From: an uncultured bacterium
Lineage (GTDB): Bacteria > Verrucomicrobiota > Lentisphaeria > Victivallales > UBA1829
Reading direction: 5' to 3'
Assembly (NCBI GenBank): GCA_902780135.1
Contig: CACZEK010000011.1
Span: 1 to 64,000 of the forward strand
DNA: 64,000 bases
Position numbers and translations under genes: made by a program
Part shown: positions 17,634 to 28,926 of the stretch, piece by piece
How the letters are laid out: every line of letters begins with the position of its first letter
Position numbering within the stretch: the first letter of the stretch is position 1
The notes under the pieces: generated by a model
The model's input: only the letters and a program-made list of their open reading frames with translations
Database searches by the model: none
Told to the model about the DNA's origin: nothing

Positions 17634-17685
17634 ATAATAGGTCTTATAGGTCTTATGGGACCTATAGGTCCTATTCTGTTATGCA
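17634..17685. repeat. ATAGGTC heptamer repeats forming an inverted repeat
   Basis: Several overlapping copies of a TATAGGTCYTA-like unit: two rightward, then GGGACCTATAGGTCCTA. The halves can pair into an imperfect hairpin. Confidence 0.6.
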
Positions 17686-17692
17686 AGGCGCG

Positions 17693-17773
17693 ACTCGCGG
17701 TCAACAAAGAAAGACTGCCGAGCTTATGCGAGGCCACTGAGCCGGCGTGATGTGCGCGAGCGGAGCCGCGCAC
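17693..17773. repeat. Decayed dispersed repeat plus an inverted hairpin-2 copy
   Basis: GCGGTCAACAAAGAAAGACTGC...CGAGCTTATGCGAGGC resembles the repeat at 25183-25290 (AGCGGTAAATAAAAAGTCTGC...). It ends with GTGCGCG-AGCGGAGC-CGCGCAC (17752-17773), nearly the reverse complement of the 46-bp array hairpin. Confidence 0.55.
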
Positions 17774-17828
17774 TACTCGACACACGCTGTGTGCGCCCCC
17801 AGCAACGCGTCCTGCCTGCAAGCCCTTG

Positions 17829-18893
17829 TTATTCTGCTGGCTCCGTCGGAACGAGCGCGAGGCGGAAGCCGGTGAAGATATCCCGTGAATCGGAGCCGGA
17901 GGGATCCCGGAACGCAATACGCGCAATGAGTTCATCGGTGTACCCCCAGCCGCCGCCATGGCAGACGCGCCTATCTCCCTGATTCCCACGCAGAAATTCC
18001 GGATCCCCGGCGTAATCTTTTTCATACCAGTCCCGGCACCATTCAGTTACATTTCCGGTCATATCGTACAAACCAAGCTCGTTCGGCTGCTTCGTCCCGA
18101 CCGGATGCGTCGTTTGCCCGGAATTGCCGTCATGCCATGCCACGGCGTCGAGGTCATCGCTTCCGCTGTACTTGAAGCCCTTGCCCTTCTTTCCGCCGCG
18201 CGCCGCGTACTCCCACTGCGCCTCGGTCGGCAGGTCGAACCGGTATCCGGCGGGCAGTTTCCCGGCATACATCCCGTTCAGGCGGGCGCAGAATATCTGA
18301 ATATCGTCCCACGACACGACCTCGACCGGGAGGTCGTCGCCCGTGAACCCGGACGGAGTACGGTTGCTCATCACGGCTTTCCACTGCGCCTGCGTGACCT
18401 CGGTCCGCCCGAGCCAGAAAACGTGTTTCAAGGTCACTTCATGCGGCATTTCATTGTCGAAAAGCTCCTTGTCGATCCCCTCGTCCGTTTCGCCCATCGT
18501 GAACGTCCCTGCCTCGACTTTCACCATCCGCAGTTCCGTTCCGCCGGGGAGCACGATCACGCCGGTCGAATCGAATTGCTTCATCGCGTCTTCCGCGAGC
18601 TTGACCGCCTCTGCCGGAATCGGCTCGAGCGGCATCGTCGCGAGTTCCTTCGCGCGATTCATCGCCTCGCGCTGGATATCCAGAATAGCCTTCGCCTCGA
18701 GCTGCAACGGCGTAAGGGGTTTCTCCCCGCCCTGTTCCTCCGCGATCCGCTCATCCCCGGCGGAATCCGTTTCCCGCCATTCCGCCATGACTTGATTCGC
18801 CCTGGCGGCCGCCAGAAAAACGGCGCAACATACGAGCGCCGCACCGAGCTCGGCGGCGATCAAAAACTTCCTGATCTCCGGTTTCCTGTTCAT
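17829..18893 (-). CDS. Exported SUMF1/FGE-fold protein without FGE cysteines
   Basis: A 354-residue envelope protein: an N-terminal membrane or signal segment (LIAAELGAALVCCAVFLAAA, residues 11-30), a helical region (to about 110), then a formylglycine-generating-enzyme/SUMF1 fold. Fold markers: VEAGTFTMGE, HEVTLKHVFWLGRTEVTQAQW, PVEVVSWDDIQIFCARLNG, LPTEAQWEYAARGG, HPVGTKQPNELGLYDMTGNVTEWCRDW, GGGWGY and FTGFRLAL. The paired active-site Cys of true FGE (in the GGSW-C-x4-C region) are not seen; the protein reads VCHGGGWGYTDELIARIAF there. A structural or ligand-binding role is more likely than sulfatase activation. It follows nadA by 53 bases. Confidence 0.8.
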   Translation of the reverse strand: MNRKPEIRKFLIAAELGAALVCCAVFLAAARANQVMAEWRETDSAGDERIAEEQGGEKPLTPLQLEAKAILDIQREAMNRAKELATMPLEPIPAEAVKLAEDAMKQFDSTGVIVLPGGTELRMVKVEAGTFTMGETDEGIDKELFDNEMPHEVTLKHVFWLGRTEVTQAQWKAVMSNRTPSGFTGDDLPVEVVSWDDIQIFCARLNGMYAGKLPAGYRFDLPTEAQWEYAARGGKKGKGFKYSGSDDLDAVAWHDGNSGQTTHPVGTKQPNELGLYDMTGNVTEWCRDWYEKDYAGDPEFLRGNQGDRRVCHGGGWGYTDELIARIAFRDPSGSDSRDIFTGFRLALVPTEPAE

Positions 18894-21706: not shown

Positions 21707-22465
21707 ATGAATCCCGATCCCATCCTGTCCGCGGCGGACGTCATCGCCGAAAAAAAGAACATGCTCATCTTCACCGGCGCCGGAGTCTCCGTCGAAAGCG
21801 GCATCCCGCCGTTCCGCGGCGCGGGCGGCCTGTGGAACAAGGTGAACCCGGACTTCTTCGAGATCGACCACTTCATGCGGCATCCGGTGGAGTCGTGGGA
21901 CCGCATCCGCTCCATCTTCTACGACCTCTGGGGCAAGTCCGCCCCGAACGCCGCCCACCTCGCGTTCGCCGAACTGGAGAAAATGGGCGTCGCATTCTCG
22001 CTCGTCACGCAGAACATCGACAATCTCCACCAGCAGGCGGGCTCGAAGAACGTGATCGAATTCCACGGCACGCTCGGACGCCTCCGCTGCACCGCGTGCT
22101 CGTTCTCCGGGCCGCCGACCCGCGACCTCCTCGCCGGAAATCCGCCGTCCTGCCCGAAGTGCGCCGCGCTCCTGAAGCCCGACATCGTCTTCTTCGGCGA
22201 AGGCATCCCCGAGCACGCCATGGACCAGTCGTTCGCCGACGCCGAATCGTGCAGCGTGTGCCTCGTGAGCGGGACCACCGGCGAGGTCATGCCCGCCTGC
22301 ATGGTGCCGCATACCGCCAAACGCCGCGGCGCGGTCGTCATCGAGGTCAATCCCGAACGGTCCGCGTTCACCGGGCACATCACCGACATCTACATCCCCG
22401 GCAAGGCGGGCGAGATCATGCCGCAGCTCCTTGCCGAAGTCAAAAAGCGCCTCGCGGCGGAATAA
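21707..22465 (+). CDS. Sir2 family NAD-dependent protein deacylase
   Basis: A 252-residue sirtuin that removes acyl groups from lysine using NAD+. NAD-binding motifs FTGAGVSVESGIPPFRGAGGLW and TQNIDNLHQQAG, the catalytic His in EFHGTL, and a Zn site CTAC...CPKC are all present. KPDIVFFGEGIP and VVIEVNPE complete the Rossmann core. It is of the bacterial CobB-type length. GGAG stands 10 bases before the ATG at 21707; the frame open to 21410 is antisense to ompH. Its TAA shares one base with the ATG of hrpB (TAATG), so the two are translationally coupled. Confidence 0.92.
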   Translation: MNPDPILSAADVIAEKKNMLIFTGAGVSVESGIPPFRGAGGLWNKVNPDFFEIDHFMRHPVESWDRIRSIFYDLWGKSAPNAAHLAFAELEKMGVAFSLVTQNIDNLHQQAGSKNVIEFHGTLGRLRCTACSFSGPPTRDLLAGNPPSCPKCAALLKPDIVFFGEGIPEHAMDQSFADAESCSVCLVSGTTGEVMPACMVPHTAKRRGAVVIEVNPERSAFTGHITDIYIPGKAGEIMPQLLAEVKKRLAAE

Positions 22466-24969
22466 TGATCCGGTCCGGGCTCCCCATCGACGCGGCGCTG
22501 CCGCAAATCGCGGACGCCGCGCGCGCCTGCCGCCCGCTCGTCGTCACGGCGGAACCCGGCGCGGGCAAAAGCACCGTCGTCCCGCTCGCCCTGCTCGAAC
22601 CGGGCGTCCTGCCCCCGGGGAAGATCGTCATGCTGGAACCCCGCCGCATCGCCGCGCGCGCCGCGGCACGCCGCATGGCGTCGCTCCTGAACGAGCCGCC
22701 GGGGAAGACCGTCGGCTACCGGACGCGCTTCGAGACGCTCGTTTCGGCGGACACGCGCGTTGAGGTCGTGACCGAGGCGCTGCTCACGCGCATGCTCCAG
22801 CGCGACCCGTCGTTGGAGGGCGTCTCAGCCGTCATCTTCGACGAATTCCACGAACGCAGCATCCACGCCGACCTCGCGCTGGCGCTCACGCTCGACGCAC
22901 GCTCCGTCCTGCGCGACGACCTCCGAATCATGCTCATGTCCGCCACGCTCGACGCCGATTCCGCCGCCGGGCTCCTCGGAAACGATACGGAGATCGTCAA
23001 CGCCTCGGGACGCTGTTTCGAGGTCGGAGTGAACTACGCACCGCTGAAACCAGGCGCGCCCGTCGAGCCGCACGCCGCCTCGGCCGTGCTGGACGCCATG
23101 AACGCGCACGAAGGCGACGCGCTCGTCTTCCTCCCCGGCGAGGCGGAGATCCGCCGCACCGCCGCCGAGCTCGCCTCCGGGCGCCACGAGTTCGAGGTCC
23201 TTCCGCTCTACGGCTCGCTCTCCGCCGCCGAACAGGACCGCGTGTTCGTGCCGTCGGACCGCCGCCGCATCATCCTCGCCACCCCCGTCGCCGAGACCAG
23301 CATCACCATCCCCGGCATCCGCATCGTCGTCGATTCCGGCCTCGCGCGCATGCCGTTCTTCTCCCCCGCGTCCGGCATGGACCAGCTCCGCACGGTCAGG
23401 ATCTCGAAGGCGTCCGCCGAACAGCGCCGCGGCCGCGCCGGACGCACCGCGCCGGGCGTCTGCATCCGCCTCTGGCACGAATACGAACAGAACGCCATGC
23501 CGGATTTCGCCCCGCCGGAGATCGAGCACGCCGACCTCACCGAGCTTGCGCTCGAGCTGGCGCAATGGGGCGTGGTCCGCGAAAAGGCCGCCGCCCTGCC
23601 CTGGATGACGCCTCCGCCCGAGGCAAAACTTGATTACGCGTTCGATCTGCTGACCGACCTCGGCGCGATCTCCGCAAAGACCGGGCAGATCACCCCGCAC
23701 GGCAAGCTTCTCCACCGCCTGCCCGTGCATCCGCGCCTCGCAAACGCCATCCTCTTCGCCGACGCGCACAGACTCCGCCGCGAAGCGCTCATGATCGCCG
23801 CCATCCTCTCCGACCGCGACCCGCTCCTCAATCCGCAGACCGCCGACCTCGCCGAACGCCTCGCCGCGCTCGACAAGGCGTCCGCGCATCCTGCAGACCG
23901 GCAGACTCTCTTTCGTATTCGGCAGGCAGTCTCCCAGCTTGAAGCAGTTCTTCCTCGTTCGAAAAACTATTTATCTTCTCAGAAAAAAGCCGATCCGTCT
24001 CTTGCGATAGCGGCGGCATACCCCGACCGCATCGCGCGGCGGCGTTCCGGCGGCGACCGCCCCGAATACCTGCTCTCCAACGGCATGACCGCCAAGCTCG
24101 GCGCGCGCGACCCGCTCCGCGATTCGGAATATCTCGCCGTGGCGGATTCCGGCGGACTCTCCGGGCAGCCCACGATCCGCCTCGCGCTCCCGCTCGACAT
24201 CGACGCGCTCGAAGCCGCGCTGCCGGACCTCTTCCGCACGCGCCGCGAGACCGTCTGGGACGACGACGCGCTGTGCGTCCGCGTGTTCAACGTGAAGGCG
24301 GTCGGCTCGCTCACCATCGAACGCAAACCATCCAATCTGCGGCCCGGCGACGACACCGCCGCGCTCCTGATCGCCGCCGTCCGCAAACGCGGTTTCGCCT
24401 CGCTCGGGCTCTCCCCCGCCCAGCTCAAATTCCTCCGTCGCATCCAATTCCTGCACGTGCACGGCTGCGAAGGCTTCCCCGACTGCTCGGAACAACACCT
24501 GCTCGACACGCTCGAAGACTGGCTCGCGCCGCACCTCGACGGCGTCAGCCGCCTCGACAAGCTCGCGGACTTGGATTACCGTTCGATTTTCGCCGCCATG
24601 CTCCCGCCGAAAGCCCAGTCCGCGCTGAACTCGCTCGCGCCCGAACGCTTCGAGGTCCCCAGCGGCTCGCACATCGCCATCGACTATTCCGACCCCGCCG
24701 CCCCCATGGTGCGCGTGAAGCTTCAGGAAGTCTTCGGCCTCGCGCATTCGCCGAAGATCGCCGGCGGACGCGTCCCGCTCGTGTTCGACCTGCTCTCCCC
24801 CGCCATGCGCACCGTGCAGATCACGCGCAGCCTCGACGAATTCTGGGACGGCTCGTATTTCCTCGTGCGGAAGGACATGCGCGGCCGCTACCCCAAGCAC
24901 AACTGGCCCGAAGACCCCCGCACCGAGCCCCCCTCCCGCTCCAGCATCAAGCGCCCGAAAAAAGCCTGA
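22465..24969 (+). CDS. hrpB: HrpB-type ATP-dependent DExH helicase
   Basis: An 834-residue DEAH-family helicase of the HrpB class, probably acting on RNA; its precise role is unknown in most bacteria. Motifs: Walker A TAEPGAGKSTVVPLALL (about residue 28), EPRRIAARAAARRMA, the DEFH box VIFDEFHERSIHADLALAL, MSATLDADSAA, VFLPGEAEI, LPLYGSLSAAEQ, ATPVAETSITIPGI and motif VI QRRGRAGRTAPGVCIRLW. The HA2 region follows, and then the HrpB-specific C-terminal domain ending in WDGSYFLVRKDMRGRYPKHNWPEDP, typical of HrpB. The last 69 bases are duplicated 131 bases downstream. Confidence 0.92.
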   Translation: MIRSGLPIDAALPQIADAARACRPLVVTAEPGAGKSTVVPLALLEPGVLPPGKIVMLEPRRIAARAAARRMASLLNEPPGKTVGYRTRFETLVSADTRVEVVTEALLTRMLQRDPSLEGVSAVIFDEFHERSIHADLALALTLDARSVLRDDLRIMLMSATLDADSAAGLLGNDTEIVNASGRCFEVGVNYAPLKPGAPVEPHAASAVLDAMNAHEGDALVFLPGEAEIRRTAAELASGRHEFEVLPLYGSLSAAEQDRVFVPSDRRRIILATPVAETSITIPGIRIVVDSGLARMPFFSPASGMDQLRTVRISKASAEQRRGRAGRTAPGVCIRLWHEYEQNAMPDFAPPEIEHADLTELALELAQWGVVREKAAALPWMTPPPEAKLDYAFDLLTDLGAISAKTGQITPHGKLLHRLPVHPRLANAILFADAHRLRREALMIAAILSDRDPLLNPQTADLAERLAALDKASAHPADRQTLFRIRQAVSQLEAVLPRSKNYLSSQKKADPSLAIAAAYPDRIARRRSGGDRPEYLLSNGMTAKLGARDPLRDSEYLAVADSGGLSGQPTIRLALPLDIDALEAALPDLFRTRRETVWDDDALCVRVFNVKAVGSLTIERKPSNLRPGDDTAALLIAAVRKRGFASLGLSPAQLKFLRRIQFLHVHGCEGFPDCSEQHLLDTLEDWLAPHLDGVSRLDKLADLDYRSIFAAMLPPKAQSALNSLAPERFEVPSGSHIAIDYSDPAAPMVRVKLQEVFGLAHSPKIAGGRVPLVFDLLSPAMRTVQITRSLDEFWDGSYFLVRKDMRGRYPKHNWPEDPRTEPPSRSSIKRPKKA

Positions 24970-25100
24970 TATTCACCTATTGCAAGCAGTTGCAGTTTTT
25001 TTGTTCCGGGAAACGCCCACCTCGCAGGCAAAACTGGCCCGAAGACCCCCGCACCGAGCCCCCTTCCCGCTCCAGCATCAAGCGCCCGAAAAAATCCTGA
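24901..25100 (+). repeat. Duplicated 3' end of hrpB
   Basis: Bases 24901-24969 (the last 22 codons and stop of hrpB) recur at 25032-25100 with about two mismatches, including the stop codon. The copies are separated by 62 bases. The second copy can still encode NWPEDPRTEPPSRSSIKRPKKS and a stop, but has no start. Confidence 0.9.
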
Positions 25101-25326
25101 CCCGCGAAGAAACAGCATGGGGCATCCCGCCTCACTTCCTCCTCACGCCCCCTTTTGCCGCTCCTCATTTCCCCCTGCCGTTCGCGTCTCAGCGGTAAAT
25201 AAAAAGTCTGCTCGCGCAAGCGAGCTTACCGAGGCGGCGAAGACGCCCCCAGCGAAGCATGGACGCACCACGTCCTTCCTTCACAATCTCATGGACAAAA
25301 AAACAGTCAAACAATCCTGTTTTAAC
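24970..25326. other. Repeat-filled boundary between hrpB and the nuclease gene
   Basis: No gene. Holds the hrpB tail copy (25032-25100) and one copy of the dispersed repeat (25183-25290); base composition falls towards AT-rich at the right. Confidence 0.7.
25183..25290 (+). repeat. Dispersed repeat, left copy of an inverted pair
   Basis: CGCGTCTCAGCGGTAAATAAA, then a hairpin GCTCGC-GCAA-GCGAGC, GAGGCGGCGAAGACGCC, CCCAGCGAAGC. The reverse complement of 27477-27585 gives the same order of blocks. The two copies face each other across the nuclease/Sel1 pair. Confidence 0.75.
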
Positions 25327-26682
25327 TTATTTTGTTTTAGAGATTGTCTCCACAAACAAGCTGTAAGTATCCTCAAAAAGATGATCAGGAAATTCACTTT
25401 CGTGACGCGCTAATGCTTTGACGAACTCATTCAAGACGAACAAATCAAAACCTCCATCTAGATCAAGATATTTCAGATCGTCTCTTTTTTGAGCCAAAAT
25501 ACAACTAAAGAAATTACGTATTTCTTTGTACCAGACAACCTCATACCCTTTGCTTTTATAAGTATCTTCCTCCCTTTTGTTGTAATTTGGGAGAAAAGCA
25601 TAAAATTTTGGATGTGTTTCATCTGGGAAACCGATGTCTTTTGCTATTTTATTTGCATTTTCTTTATATTTGTCGAGTTGATTGTAGTTATTTGTTTTCT
25701 CGGAATCTAATTCAGTATTAGAATCATTCATCTGCGTTGTCGGAAGGTCTTCTTGTTTTTTCTTAGCACCATTGATTCCGGATTTAATCTTATTTTCAAT
25801 GACAACAAGAGAATTTGTTCCAGGATCAACTATCAACAAATCAATATTTTTTTCCTCCCGTAGAACATATGCTTGAGAACTTAATTCGCAATTCAATACA
25901 CTCCTTGCGAAATCTTTCAACATCGCTGGATTTTCATTTAGAAGATAGCTAAACCAGTTCGAAAAAGCAAGTTCATCATCTTCTTTTCCTATTACATTCA
26001 AAATATTGAATTGTTTTTTTATTGTTCCTCTTATATCAATCATTTCAGAATTATCTTTCTCTTTCCAACAACTATCATCATTGATTATTTCTGTCAATTT
26101 TTTATACACGTTTTTTTTCCTTTTATCATCTGAATTACAAGGATAGTATCCTCTTAAGGAATGACATCCAGGATTTCCCATCTCCTCTTTATTCGAATAA
26201 TCAACATAAAGACGTTCATCATCTTTCGCCCGGCGAAAATCTCCAGCTTCATAGGAGACCAATATCCCCTGTTTATCATTTTCTTCGGCATAATTAAAGA
26301 TATCCGCCAACTTCTTTCCCCCATACTTTATTTCTTCACAATCTTTCATTTGCCCTTTTTTTATTTCTAATAAATCCTGCGGCGTGCGTTCTTTTCTTGA
26401 ATGTCTGCCTTTTACACCTGAATATGAATCACTTAAATTCCACGCCTTAGCAATAATTTTAACTTTGCGATTACCGACATAACGAACTAAAAGAATTGTT
26501 TCGATCTTACCGTAATCCTTTTCATTGACATGCCCCCACGGATTGACATAGATATAGTGCTTCTTATTATCAGCCCTAAATAGGTTAATAATCTCATGTC
26601 CCAGTTTTTCTCTGAGATAATTACCTCGGAACATGAATACCATCAAGATAGTTCCGTTCTCATGCTGCCCGCTTGCGCTCAT
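25327..26682 (-). CDS. PD-(D/E)xK nuclease family protein, AT-rich
   Basis: A 451-residue protein with a C-terminal PD-(D/E)xK nuclease domain (PDDEXK_4-like). The domain opens with DDELAFSNWFSYLLNENPAM (about residue 240) and carries the catalytic pattern IDLLIVDPG...LVVIENKIKSG (Asp, then Glu-x-Lys) with a downstream QLDKYKENA helix. Residues 1-235 form an unrecognised N-terminal domain (GNYLREKLGHEIINLFRADNKKHYIYVNPWG and on). Composition is strikingly AT-rich (Lys, Asn, Ile) against GC-rich neighbours, a sign of recent transfer. It lies 11 bases after the Sel1 gene, sharing its promoter. No toxin, methylase or transposase adjoins. A defence or self-targeting nuclease role is possible but unproven. 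Confidence 0.75.
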   Translation of the reverse strand: MSASGQHENGTILMVFMFRGNYLREKLGHEIINLFRADNKKHYIYVNPWGHVNEKDYGKIETILLVRYVGNRKVKIIAKAWNLSDSYSGVKGRHSRKERTPQDLLEIKKGQMKDCEEIKYGGKKLADIFNYAEENDKQGILVSYEAGDFRRAKDDERLYVDYSNKEEMGNPGCHSLRGYYPCNSDDKRKKNVYKKLTEIINDDSCWKEKDNSEMIDIRGTIKKQFNILNVIGKEDDELAFSNWFSYLLNENPAMLKDFARSVLNCELSSQAYVLREEKNIDLLIVDPGTNSLVVIENKIKSGINGAKKKQEDLPTTQMNDSNTELDSEKTNNYNQLDKYKENANKIAKDIGFPDETHPKFYAFLPNYNKREEDTYKSKGYEVVWYKEIRNFFSCILAQKRDDLKYLDLDGGFDLFVLNEFVKALARHESEFPDHLFEDTYSLFVETISKTK

Positions 26683-26693
26683 TTGTTTTCTCC

Positions 26694-27266
26694 TTATTGG
26701 GGTGAAGAGGGGGTGGTTTTTAAGTTATCCCGGACTTCTTTCAGCTCAGGGGAATAGACTTTGTTTTGGACGGATTGATATAATTCCTCGTCGTCGGGGG
26801 CGGCGACGGCGGCGCGGCAGAACCATACACACGCCGCATCAAGGTCTTTCTTCACGCCGACGCCGTCCTCATAGCATTCTCCGAGGTGAAACATGCCCCA
26901 CGCATCGCCTTTTTCCGCCGCCTTGCGGAACCACTTGACCGCCTCGCGCGGATTGTACACAACGCTTTGTTCGAACAGACACCAGTTGCCAAGTATGACC
27001 ATCGCTTTCACAAGCCCCTGCTCCGCCGCTCTCCGCATCCATTGAGCCGCCGTTGCGCGGTTCCGCCTCACGCCGATGCCGAATGTATAGCATCTGCCAA
27101 GCTCAAACATCGCCTCGGCGCACCCCTGCTCCGCCGCCATGCGATACCACCTGACCGCCTCCGCCTCATCCTTGCCGACGCCGTCGCCTGTCCCGTAGCA
27201 TTTCCCGACCTGAAACAACTGTTCCACGGTCTTTGCCTTCAACGCCTGAAAACCCTGCTTGTTCAT
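26694..27266 (-). CDS. Sel1-like repeat protein
   Basis: A 190-residue protein built from about four Sel1-like repeats (TPR relatives), a protein-binding scaffold: VGKCYGTGDGVGKDEAEAVRWYRMAAEQG; ELGRCYTFGIGVRRNRATAAQWMRRAAEQG; a degenerate LGNWCLFEQSVVYNPREAVKWFRKAAEKG; and HLGECYEDGVGVKKDLDAACVWFCRAA. No signal peptide, so cytoplasmic. It is more GC-rich than the nuclease gene that follows at 11 bases, so the two may have different origins although co-transcribed. The partner is a plausible binding target of the repeats, by context only. Confidence 0.85.
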   Translation of the reverse strand: MNKQGFQALKAKTVEQLFQVGKCYGTGDGVGKDEAEAVRWYRMAAEQGCAEAMFELGRCYTFGIGVRRNRATAAQWMRRAAEQGLVKAMVILGNWCLFEQSVVYNPREAVKWFRKAAEKGDAWGMFHLGECYEDGVGVKKDLDAACVWFCRAAVAAPDDEELYQSVQNKVYSPELKEVRDNLKTTPSSPQ

Positions 27267-27289
27267 TTTTGCTGCACCGTTTTGTTCTG

Positions 27290-27318
27290 ATTATAAACAC
27301 AAAGAAAGATAATCTAAA
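27290..27318 (-). promoter_or_regulatory. Promoter of the Sel1-nuclease pair
   Basis: Minus strand: TTTAGA (27318-27313), 17-base spacer, perfect TATAAT (27295-27290). An inverted repeat ATTTGAT/ATCAAAT (27330-27336 and 27346-27352) lies just upstream and may bind a regulator. Confidence 0.6.
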
Positions 27319-27429
27319 GCACAATATACATTTGATCGGAAGATAATCAAATGGTTTTTCTGCTTTTTTTATCTTTTTCTGCGTTATGAGAAGGAGAAAA
27401 GGTGGCAGAGCATCCGAGCTTCGCCGGGG

Positions 27430-27474
27430 GGAGGCAAGGCCTCCTCTGCGGTTATGCTTGGCTCCGCTCAAGCA
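27430..27474 (+). repeat. Two-hairpin element
   Basis: GGAGGCAAGGCCTCC (27430-27444), TCTGCGGTTA linker, hairpin TGCTTG-GCTCCGCT-CAAGCA (27455-27474). The 8-base loop matches other copies while the stem differs. Confidence 0.75.
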
Positions 27475-27476
27475 CA

Positions 27477-27585
27477 TAGGACACATGGCGTCCGCGCTTC
27501 GCTGGGGGCGCTTCGCGCCTCGGAAAACTCGCTTCGCTCGACAGCCTCTTTATTTACCGCTGAGACGCGGACGGCAGAGACTTTA
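27477..27585 (-). repeat. Dispersed repeat, right copy of the inverted pair
   Basis: On the minus strand: CGCGTCTCAGCGGTAAATAAA, CGAGCGAAGCGAG, GGCGC-GAA-GCGCC hairpin, CCCAGCGAAGCGCGGACGC. Counterpart of 25183-25290. Confidence 0.75.
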
Positions 27586-27760
27586 GAGGATTGAGGTGGA
27601 TTCACCTCACCGCCGAGGCGCGAACGGCTATGTTTTTCAAATATGGGAGGAAGATATCCTCTTCCTCGTTTTTCTCTGAGGTTGTTTTGCCTCACCGCCG
27701 AGACGCGAACGACTAAGTTTTTTTTAAGGGAGGGAGTTATTTTCTCCCTCATTTTCTGCC
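27565..27760. repeat. Three degenerate direct repeats with hairpins
   Basis: ACCGCTGAGACGCGGACGGC, ACCGCCGAGGCGCGAACGGC and ACCGCCGAGACGCGAACGAC start successive units. They are followed by different stems: GAGGTGGATTCACCTC, GAGGAAGA-TATCC-TCTTCCTC and GAGGGAG-TTATTTT-CTCCCTC. The latter two are followed by T-rich runs and look like terminators. Confidence 0.65.
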
Positions 27761-27773
27761 GAACGATGTAGCG

Positions 27774-28028
27774 TCACTTCTCCAGGGCGGCGAGCAGGAC
27801 GATCTCGGGCTTAGCCGTCGCGGCAACCTTCGCGGGGCGAAAAATCACTTCTCCGGGGAGTCGAGGAGGACGATCTCGGCTTAGCCATGGCGGTGTCCTC
27901 ACCCCCCCAAAAAAACAGACATCTGCAGCCCGCGGTGTTACTTCTCCGGGGAGTCGGTTTTAGCCGTCGCGGCAACCTTCGCGGGACGAATAATCACTTC
28001 TCCGGGGAGTCGAGGAGGACGATCTCGG
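27774..28028 (-). repeat. Duplicated 3' tails of the EEP gene
   Basis: The last codons of the gene ending at 27994 (27992-28028, encoding AEIVLLDSPEK and stop) recur exactly at 27843-27880, as a diverged form at 27774-27810 (EIVLLAALEK, stop) and as a short form at 27938-27955 (TDSPEK, stop). A second block encoding RPAKVAATAK (27812-27844 and 27961-27993) sits between them. The arrangement alternates tail and block. Confidence 0.88.
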
Positions 28029-28926
28029 CGGTGACGGGGAAATGGTCGGAGGACGCGAGGCCGTTGCGGAAGTCGTTGATGGCGCCGTGGGAAAGCACGC
28101 GCACACGGCTGTTCACGAAGATGAAGTCGATCGGCTTGCGGTGGGAGCGCTCTTTGCGGTTTTCGTGGAAATCGTGGAAGGTCTCGTCGCCCGCGCCGTA
28201 ATGGTCGGTCTCGGAGACGTCGCGGGCGTTCCGCAGCACGCCGAGCACGCGCCGCGCGGGCATGTCGTCGGCGGTGGAATTGAAGTCGCCGGTGAGGATG
28301 AACGGGTATTTGTCGATCATGGGCGCGAGGCGGGTCAGGATCACGTTCACGCCCTGAATCCGCGCCATCGCGCTGCGGTTGTCGAGGTGCGTGTTCGCGA
28401 TGACGAAGCGTTTCCCGGTCCGGCGGTCGAGCAGGAGCCCCCACGTGCAGATGCGCGGGCACGCGGAATCCCAGCCGGAGGAGCCGGGCTTCTGGGGCTC
28501 TTCGGAGAGCCAGAACGTCTCCTGCGAGAGCATTTCGAAGCGTTCCGGGTCGTAGAAGACGGCGTTGTGCTCGTCGCCCTTGTGCCGGTCTCGCCCGACG
28601 CCGAAATAACTGAACCCAAGCGAACCGGCGAGGTCCTTGATCGGGCCGGAAAGCGTCTCCTGCGTGCCGATCAGCTCGAATCTGTTGTCGCGGATGGTCT
28701 TCACCATGCGCGGCAGGCGGTCGCGCCACGAATTCGGCGCCCGGTCGTTCGGACCGCGCACGTTGTAGGTCGCCACACGGATCAGGTTCTTTTCCGCCTC
28801 GGAATCCGCCTTCGCGACCTGCGCGCCGGAAAGCGCCACCGGCGCGGCGACGGCGATCAACATGAACGCGGCAAACAACAGAATGAGCGGCAGTCCGCCC
28901 GGCTTCGCATGGAATAAACGTTTCAT
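27994..28926 (-). CDS. Exported endonuclease/exonuclease/phosphatase (EEP) protein
   Basis: A 310-residue metal-dependent phosphodiesterase-fold protein. An N-terminal membrane or signal segment (LPLILLFAAFMLIAVAAPVALSGA) places it in the envelope. EEP motifs in order: ATYNVRGPN, IGTQET (catalytic Glu), NTHLDNRS, TGDFNSTADD, PIDFIFVNS and SSDHFPVTAEI (catalytic Asp-His). Substrate could be DNA, a phospholipid or a sugar phosphate; not decidable. Its ATGA overlaps the xseA stop. It ends in EIVLLDSPEK, and this tail is duplicated downstream (27774-27993). Confidence 0.87.
   Translation of the reverse strand: MKRLFHAKPGGLPLILLFAAFMLIAVAAPVALSGAQVAKADSEAEKNLIRVATYNVRGPNDRAPNSWRDRLPRMVKTIRDNRFELIGTQETLSGPIKDLAGSLGFSYFGVGRDRHKGDEHNAVFYDPERFEMLSQETFWLSEEPQKPGSSGWDSACPRICTWGLLLDRRTGKRFVIANTHLDNRSAMARIQGVNVILTRLAPMIDKYPFILTGDFNSTADDMPARRVLGVLRNARDVSETDHYGAGDETFHDFHENRKERSHRKPIDFIFVNSRVRVLSHGAINDFRNGLASSDHFPVTAEIVLLDSPEK

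Follow-up and report, generated by a model that had tools for sequence, protein, structure and literature searches.

A nuclease/Sel1 gene pair between facing repeats at the hrpB/EEP locus, and related gene cassettes in a genus of rumen Lentisphaeria

The nuclease/Sel1 locus

The stretch of DNA analysed here (the window) comprises positions 1 to 64,000 of contig CACZEK010000011.1 (C11) from an uncultured bacterium of the Victivallales lineage UBA1829, whose genome assembly (GCA_902780135.1) amounts to 2.84 Mb in 29 contigs. Within it, genes for a PD-(D/E)XK nuclease and a Sel1-repeat protein lie between two facing copies of a repeat of about 100 bases, an arrangement called a cassette below, and this locus is one member of a genus-wide system. 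The cassette is set between two convergent core genes, both also located in relatives by tblastn: the helicase gene hrpB on the left (22462..24969, + strand; Pfam HrpB_C, 166.6 bits) and a gene of the Exo_endo_phos family (EEP) on the right (27994..28926, - strand; Pfam, 47.8 bits), which end at 24969 and 27994, respectively.

The nuclease, a candidate defence protein (25327..26682, - strand), matches PF14281 (PDDEXK_4) at 29.1 bits (cut-off 22.3) and PDC-S26 of PADLOC (E 1.6e-11), and its residues D281, E296 and K298 are invariant in 12 aligned sequences. The Sel1-repeat gene (26694..27266, - strand; Pfam Sel1, 131.8 bits) is a recurrent cassette gene with close relatives in other cassettes. 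These identities agree with the original prediction, which was made from this DNA alone and had also called the nuclease gene AT-rich (GC content is 41% between the repeats and 62% in the window) and reported no transposase or integrase; neither of the two cargo genes belongs to such a family. Upstream of the cargo, a leader motif common to other cassettes is found at 27323..27367 (- strand; 4 mismatches in 29), where a promoter scan gave the promoter-like TTGATT-16-TATATT. An Rfam search of this slot of the window returned no match.

The two repeats, both of the L type, occupy 25177..25277 (+ strand, 3' side of the cargo; nhmmer 81-82 bits) and 27477..27575 (- strand, 5' side; 74-75 bits) and face each other with 87% identity over 93 bp, within about 13 bp of the positions first proposed for them (25183-25290 and 27477-27585). 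They score far above chance, at 98.9 and 95.8 bits, respectively, against R1, a model made from aligned repeat copies (E 4e-26 and 3e-25 in the window), R1 having been built partly from both. A weaker copy of the repeat is present on the + strand at 17683-17829 (42.9 bits, E 2.7e-10).

Outside the repeats, the 3' ends of both convergent neighbours are duplicated, as had been noted at the outset. The last 76 bp of hrpB (24894-24969) recur at 25025..25100 (+ strand) with 95% identity over 76 bp, separated from the original by a filler (24970..25024, + strand) that partly resembles sequence just outside repeats elsewhere (local alignment score of 38 against locus L147; maximum of 23 among 300 shuffles). 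On the other side, additional copies of the EEP 3' end occupy 27774..27956 (- strand): the 3' end and 40 bp beyond it (27954-28029) are copied at 27805-27880 (95%), and shorter copies are found at 27774-27808 (89% of 35 bp) and 27940-27956 (17 bp, exact). Tandem units containing the outer 20 bp of the repeat (27592..27755, - strand; core matches 27609-27628 and 27694-27713) lie between these copies and the 5' repeat.

Repeats and cassettes across the genus

With matches accepted at E values up to 0.001, R1 identified at least 291 copies of the repeat in 12 of the 13 genomes of the genus, none in the thirteenth (G007), and none in the 23 genomes from other genera of the family, 36 genomes having been searched in all. 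Scoring covered the top 111-150 candidates of each genome, which makes the counts minimum values and limits the absences; these are also soft because metagenome assemblies represent the named relatives and the other genomes are incomplete. The relatives are rumen Lentisphaeria: of 11 related loci from the named collection, seven are from Lentisphaerae, Lentisphaeria or Victivallales, and five are from the rumen. One exact pattern each of the repeat and of the leader RNA (described below) had no match in viral contigs, and one repeat copy had no blastn match in phages and plasmids. The repeat has compensatory changes in two of 11 predicted base pairs, both in its central hairpin. Among 150 of the at least 291 copies, opposed neighbours 0.4-8 kb apart point inward in 31 cases and outward in none, and those less than 400 bp apart point inward once and outward once; orthologous loci are included, which makes these counts less independent than they look.

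Loci were fetched on the basis of matches to the repeat pattern, Sel1, the nuclease, EEP, groEL and DnaQ, together with high-scoring repeats. Facing pairs number 43 in these loci; they come from 11 species and 17 places, nine of which are occupied in two or more species. At least 300 bp are enclosed by 37 of the pairs, and the remaining six enclose only 23-199 bp (26 bp in G011, for example). The cassettes follow a common plan, in which a repeat is followed by a leader, the genes, and a stop codon close before the second repeat. In the 33 one-way cassettes, with genes called by a simple open reading frame (ORF) scorer, the median distance is 175 bp from the repeat to the first start and 29 bp from the last stop codon to the repeat. 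Cargo GC content has a median of 0.44 (range 0.37-0.56). A strict tie between the L type and the 5' side was rejected, since it is a tendency only: the same 33 cassettes comprise 14 with L at the 5' and S at the 3' end, 10 LL, five SL, one SS and three unclassified.

The proposal that 3' gene ends serve as landing sites holds as a bias: the 3' end points toward the cassette in 58 of the 71 flanking gene ends called, and none of the 30 loci with both flanks called is divergent. Two 3' ends are not required, because 10 of these 30 loci are tandem (20 are convergent).

The hrpB/EEP position (slot A) was compared among relatives, except G006, G012 and G007, in which it is rearranged, at a contig end or too distant. 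It is empty in G005, G008, G009 and G011, where hrpB and EEP adjoin directly, their stop codons 7-9 bp apart in three species and about 30 bp apart in G009. Facing repeats enclose Sel1 alone in G010, which has its own hrpB-tail copy, and Sel1, an FtsK-like ATPase gene and one more gene in G002. An AIDA-type autotransporter gene (G004) and a DUF4357-like gene (G001, below cut-off) occupy the slot with no repeats detected in either case, and in G003 hrpB and EEP are on separate contigs with repeats after each. The repeats of the window resemble those of slot A in G010 and G002 no more than background (0.40-0.62 identity; mean of 0.52 and 95th percentile of 0.75 for the variable repeat segment), which fits independent arrival. 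The suggestion of a non-autonomous cargo slot is sustained in that 17 places have other genes enclosed by the repeat pair and slot A is empty or differently filled in relatives, rather than retaining the same nuclease and Sel1 genes.

The part of that suggestion that made the tail duplications an element of a defined insertion mechanism did not survive. They are found in only four of 79 flanks (both sides of the window cassette, the hrpB side in G010, and a weak case in a repeat-rich tail at L121), three of them in slot A, which rules them out as an insertion signature. They look like local scars of earlier events in slot A, because the filler beside the hrpB tail resembles sequence outside repeats elsewhere. 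As a separate observation, an element like TTGCAAGTAGTTTCAATT recurs just outside several repeats (L147:5775-5815, L150:5770-5835, L121:7600-7645).

Cargo genes and the leader RNA

Across five species, the groEL slot (slot B) has four gene sets, each of them resembling restriction or defence genes. The genome of the window has ApeA_NTD1, GmrSD_N/HNH and EcoRI-type methylase genes there; G004 has an N6_Mtase/Methylase_S fusion; G005 has HSDR_N_2/N6_Mtase and Methylase_S genes, to which the set of G008 is related; and G010 has HSDR_N and an unknown gene. The set of G004 has no DNA similarity to those of G005 and G008, yet they have methylase families in common and fall into one translated-search cluster. 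Other loads, by Pfam, include an MmeI-type enzyme (G004), a T5orf172 protein, a protein kinase with Sel1, a combination of WYL, unknown, FtsK and Sel1 genes, LGT, AIDA autotransporters, and TM2/zinc-ribbon proteins. PADLOC agrees on the restriction, T5orf172 and window nuclease loads and left eight of 20 further cargo proteins unmatched; several loads have no match in either Pfam or PADLOC. Of the 37 cassettes, no fewer than 11 carry a candidate defence gene, an assignment that for four (L142 and the L044-L046 nucleases) depends on homology alone; some loads are predicted to act against phages. Some slots (slot F, and slot B of G005 and G008) have the same cargo in two or three species. The window nuclease was not found on plasmids.

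No recombinase, integrase or transposase was found among 38 proteins scanned in or beside cassettes, which cover part of the cargo ORFs. That count leaves out a Cas1-like protein of G003, encoded on the groEL side of slot B (L203:4124-9802), where Cas9- and Cas1-like genes are located downstream of four same-direction repeats and are read as a CRISPR locus. Near groEL, G006 (L201) and G001 (L202) each have a tyrosine-integrase-like gene and no facing repeats.

A leader of approximately 320 bp, directly inside the 5' repeat, is present in 17 of 37 cassettes (one of them partial), with 78-96% identity to the best of three queries; it begins with a promoter-like stretch and precedes varied genes. 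Its model (R2) has 19 copies in 820 kb from 72 sources, one beside a single repeat (L209) and 18 in facing cassettes, so that 18 of the 37 cassettes encode the RNA, the latter copies being the 17 used to build R2 plus L140. The leader RNA has a 46-pair structure with 97.1% of cells paired and compensatory change in 21 pairs, and its covariation score is 0.424, compared with 0.191 when shuffled and 0.045-0.093 when slid, the structure having been derived from the same alignment used to score it. One of five measures, further pair types, did not exceed shuffles (39 versus 42.4). One example of the leader folds at z = -5.4 and has no Rfam match. As a candidate new RNA family the leader RNA is strongly supported, and its role is open to testing. 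It ends with a GC hairpin and a U-run, a terminator before the cargo, and because of this position and terminator it may attenuate cargo expression, with termination immediately upstream of the genes as the predicted means of tuning. A shorter promoter motif is found in 14 of 37 cassettes, including that of the window, which is without the leader RNA, and in none of 740 shuffled cassettes; its 18 other matches are by origin duplicate stretches or lie beside a single repeat.

Movement, exchange and likeness to known systems

The Sel1 cassettes at slot A of G010 and at the DnaQ slot (slot D) of G004 form a single alignment with 84.8% identity over 921 bp, which ends 2 bp and 15 bp outside the outer repeat edges, in unrelated surroundings; both repeats are alike (0.88 and 0.92 in the variable segment). 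Because one Sel1 cassette is thus found at two unrelated sites with homology from edge to edge, the cassette is probably the mobile unit. Among inter-slot alignments of at least 250 bp, 96 of 168 extend to an outer edge of a repeat; of 194 edge readings, 165 are within -12 to +20 bp of the edge, and the other 29 overshoot by 59-489 bp, apparently where further repeats stack outside. Despite different cargo, the variable repeat segment is 0.83-0.95 identical across species at either end of slot B (groEL/hpt) and at the ABC-F end of slot C; on the hpt and ABC-F sides the similarity ends just past (A/G)GCGAAGC. The slot C loads of G001 and G005 have a related first gene but differ in the gene beside the ABC-F-side repeat, and that of G008 is different. 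Unit transfer and exchange inside shared blocks both seem to occur.

Facing repeats, common slots with different or no cargo, a common plan, and one cassette at two sites edge to edge are observed; how cassettes move is inferred from these features, with two candidate modes. The explanation preferred here, with a probability of roughly 0.55, is that the nuclease and Sel1 genes form one of a family of cassettes spread across the genus and that the facing repeats are the ends of a non-autonomous mobile unit. The repeats would be recognised by the moving enzyme, a recombinase encoded elsewhere, which would insert the repeat-ended cassette between core genes. Since repeats persist at some slots while the cargo changes, installed cargo may be further exchanged by recombination inside the shared blocks, namely the repeat, the leader and Sel1. 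As in a non-autonomous transposon of the MITE type with a passenger, inverted termini end the homology between copies at different sites.

Several observations weigh against this explanation. Most of the inter-slot alignments consist of the repeat and leader only (about 430 bp), and their ending at outer edges is partly expected because all repeats belong to one family. Repeats are not kept at slot A (0.36-0.72), on the DUF362 side of slot C (0.56-0.68, G008) or on the DnaQ side of slot D (down to 0.28). Between slot G of G011 and slot D of G012 and G005, the nuclease cargo is 84% identical and the 5' repeats are unrelated (0.36-0.40), so that cargo can move without its repeats, as plain homologous recombination allows; G011 and G003 have the slot G repeat (0.92) and leader in common, and different genes. 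Inspection by eye of the outer edges, where tandem units blur the true ends, showed no evident target-site duplication, and no moving enzyme was identified among the 38 cassette proteins, whole genomes not having been searched for an autonomous partner.

The foremost rival, although an unlikely one, is homologous recombination alone, in which DNA taken up by the cell would be integrated through core-gene flanks and the repeats would be passive insulators or terminators. Minimal mobile elements are defined without a transposase and without conserved ends on the inserted unit, and we know of none with cassette-end repeats that travel with cargo to other sites. In Neisseria (PMC1538595), different whole genes occupy the interval between one conserved pair of neighbours. 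Slots A, B, C, D and G likewise have different genes between the same two conserved genes; cargo varies between conserved flanks and repeats, central genes vary between a common leader and Sel1, and the ComEC family is present in all 13 genomes. In contrast to such elements, the cassettes carry conserved ends (repeats and leader), and recombination through flanks accounts poorly for the same cassette at unrelated sites without flank homology, for the 31-to-0 facing orientation and for clean empty sites. The least credible of the alternatives, and a very improbable one, is vertical descent of ancient insertions from which each species has lost different genes: the same cargo in two or three species at some slots would suit it, but loss could hardly leave several loads of dissimilar DNA in one slot, or place one cassette in two.

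REPINs (the subject of PMC3116915) are short structured repeats. They come in inverted pairs, are not known to carry genes and are moved by Y1 (RAYT) transposases. The structured inverted pairs described here, six of them only 23-199 bp apart, recall REPINs enlarged by cargo, but unlike REPINs the cassettes carry genes, and Y1_Tnp was matched in only four of the 13 genomes (partially in three of these), which do not include that of the window, in assemblies that are incomplete; movement by RAYT therefore has little to recommend it. About as improbable, and ranked just below it, is movement by XerC/XerD. Dif modules are not known to contain a recombinase and have XerC/XerD sites of 28 bp. On Acinetobacter plasmids, inversely oriented sites (pdif/XerCD) surround varied cargo, including sel1 (PMC13141974). 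The cassettes likewise have inversely oriented end sites, Sel1 genes and no enzyme of their own in the scan, and the genome of the window encodes XerD and an XerC-like protein (below cut-off). They differ from dif modules, with their short sites and plasmid location, in having structured repeats of about 100 bp, a chromosomal location, a leader RNA and no dif likeness: the best match to the E. coli dif arms in or near any repeat has 7 mismatches in 22, as compared with 7-9 for random windows, a weak test because the dif site of the genus itself may differ.

Integrons have attC sites in one direction and arrays of cassettes, with defence cargo known. The cassettes resemble theirs in that a gene is followed closely by a structured site, but their end repeats face each other, and an integron was rejected for the genome of the window, where the best of five tyrosine recombinases scores 152.4 bits against a TIGR02249 cut-off of 265. 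The Phage_integrase family was discarded as a discriminator because it is present in all 13 genomes, including the repeat-free G007. Integrons, dif modules, REPINs and minimal mobile elements each fail at least one tested feature, and the cassettes are filed under no known family; in their working they come closest to dif modules, or to a passenger-carrying non-autonomous transposon. A literature search, in which few subscription papers were within reach, apparently found no account of such cassettes. Tentatively, and with less confidence than in the non-autonomous mobile unit itself, they may constitute a new class of mobile gene cassette with inverted structured ends, a built-in promoter and a structured leader RNA, its interchangeable anti-phage or surface genes being shuffled among fixed chromosomal slots genus-wide by some enzyme, and its RNA switching the cargo or joining in movement.

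Defence genes are known to cluster at chromosomal hotspots, sometimes without a clear means of travel. In the E. coli integration hotspots described in PMC10121019, defence genes vary at fixed core-gene sites, some with unclear mobilisation. Unlike those islands, the cassettes are marked by one repeat family at 17 places, so that their ends, landing slots and exchange breakpoints can be read directly, and the repeat offers a way to search uncultured rumen bacteria for new defence genes.

Two minor features of the cassette loci were also noted. Stacked units of approximately 50-90 bp containing the outer 20 bp of the repeat are found outside full repeats at L208:10160-10460, L037:3234-3540 and L109:6571-9010, as if left over from earlier exchanges. 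A cassette protein of 267 amino acids without a Pfam match is encoded by 90% identical DNA in two different slots (L125:3718-4521 and L036:3381-4184), and its C-terminal cysteines, by eye, recall an iron-sulphur cluster.

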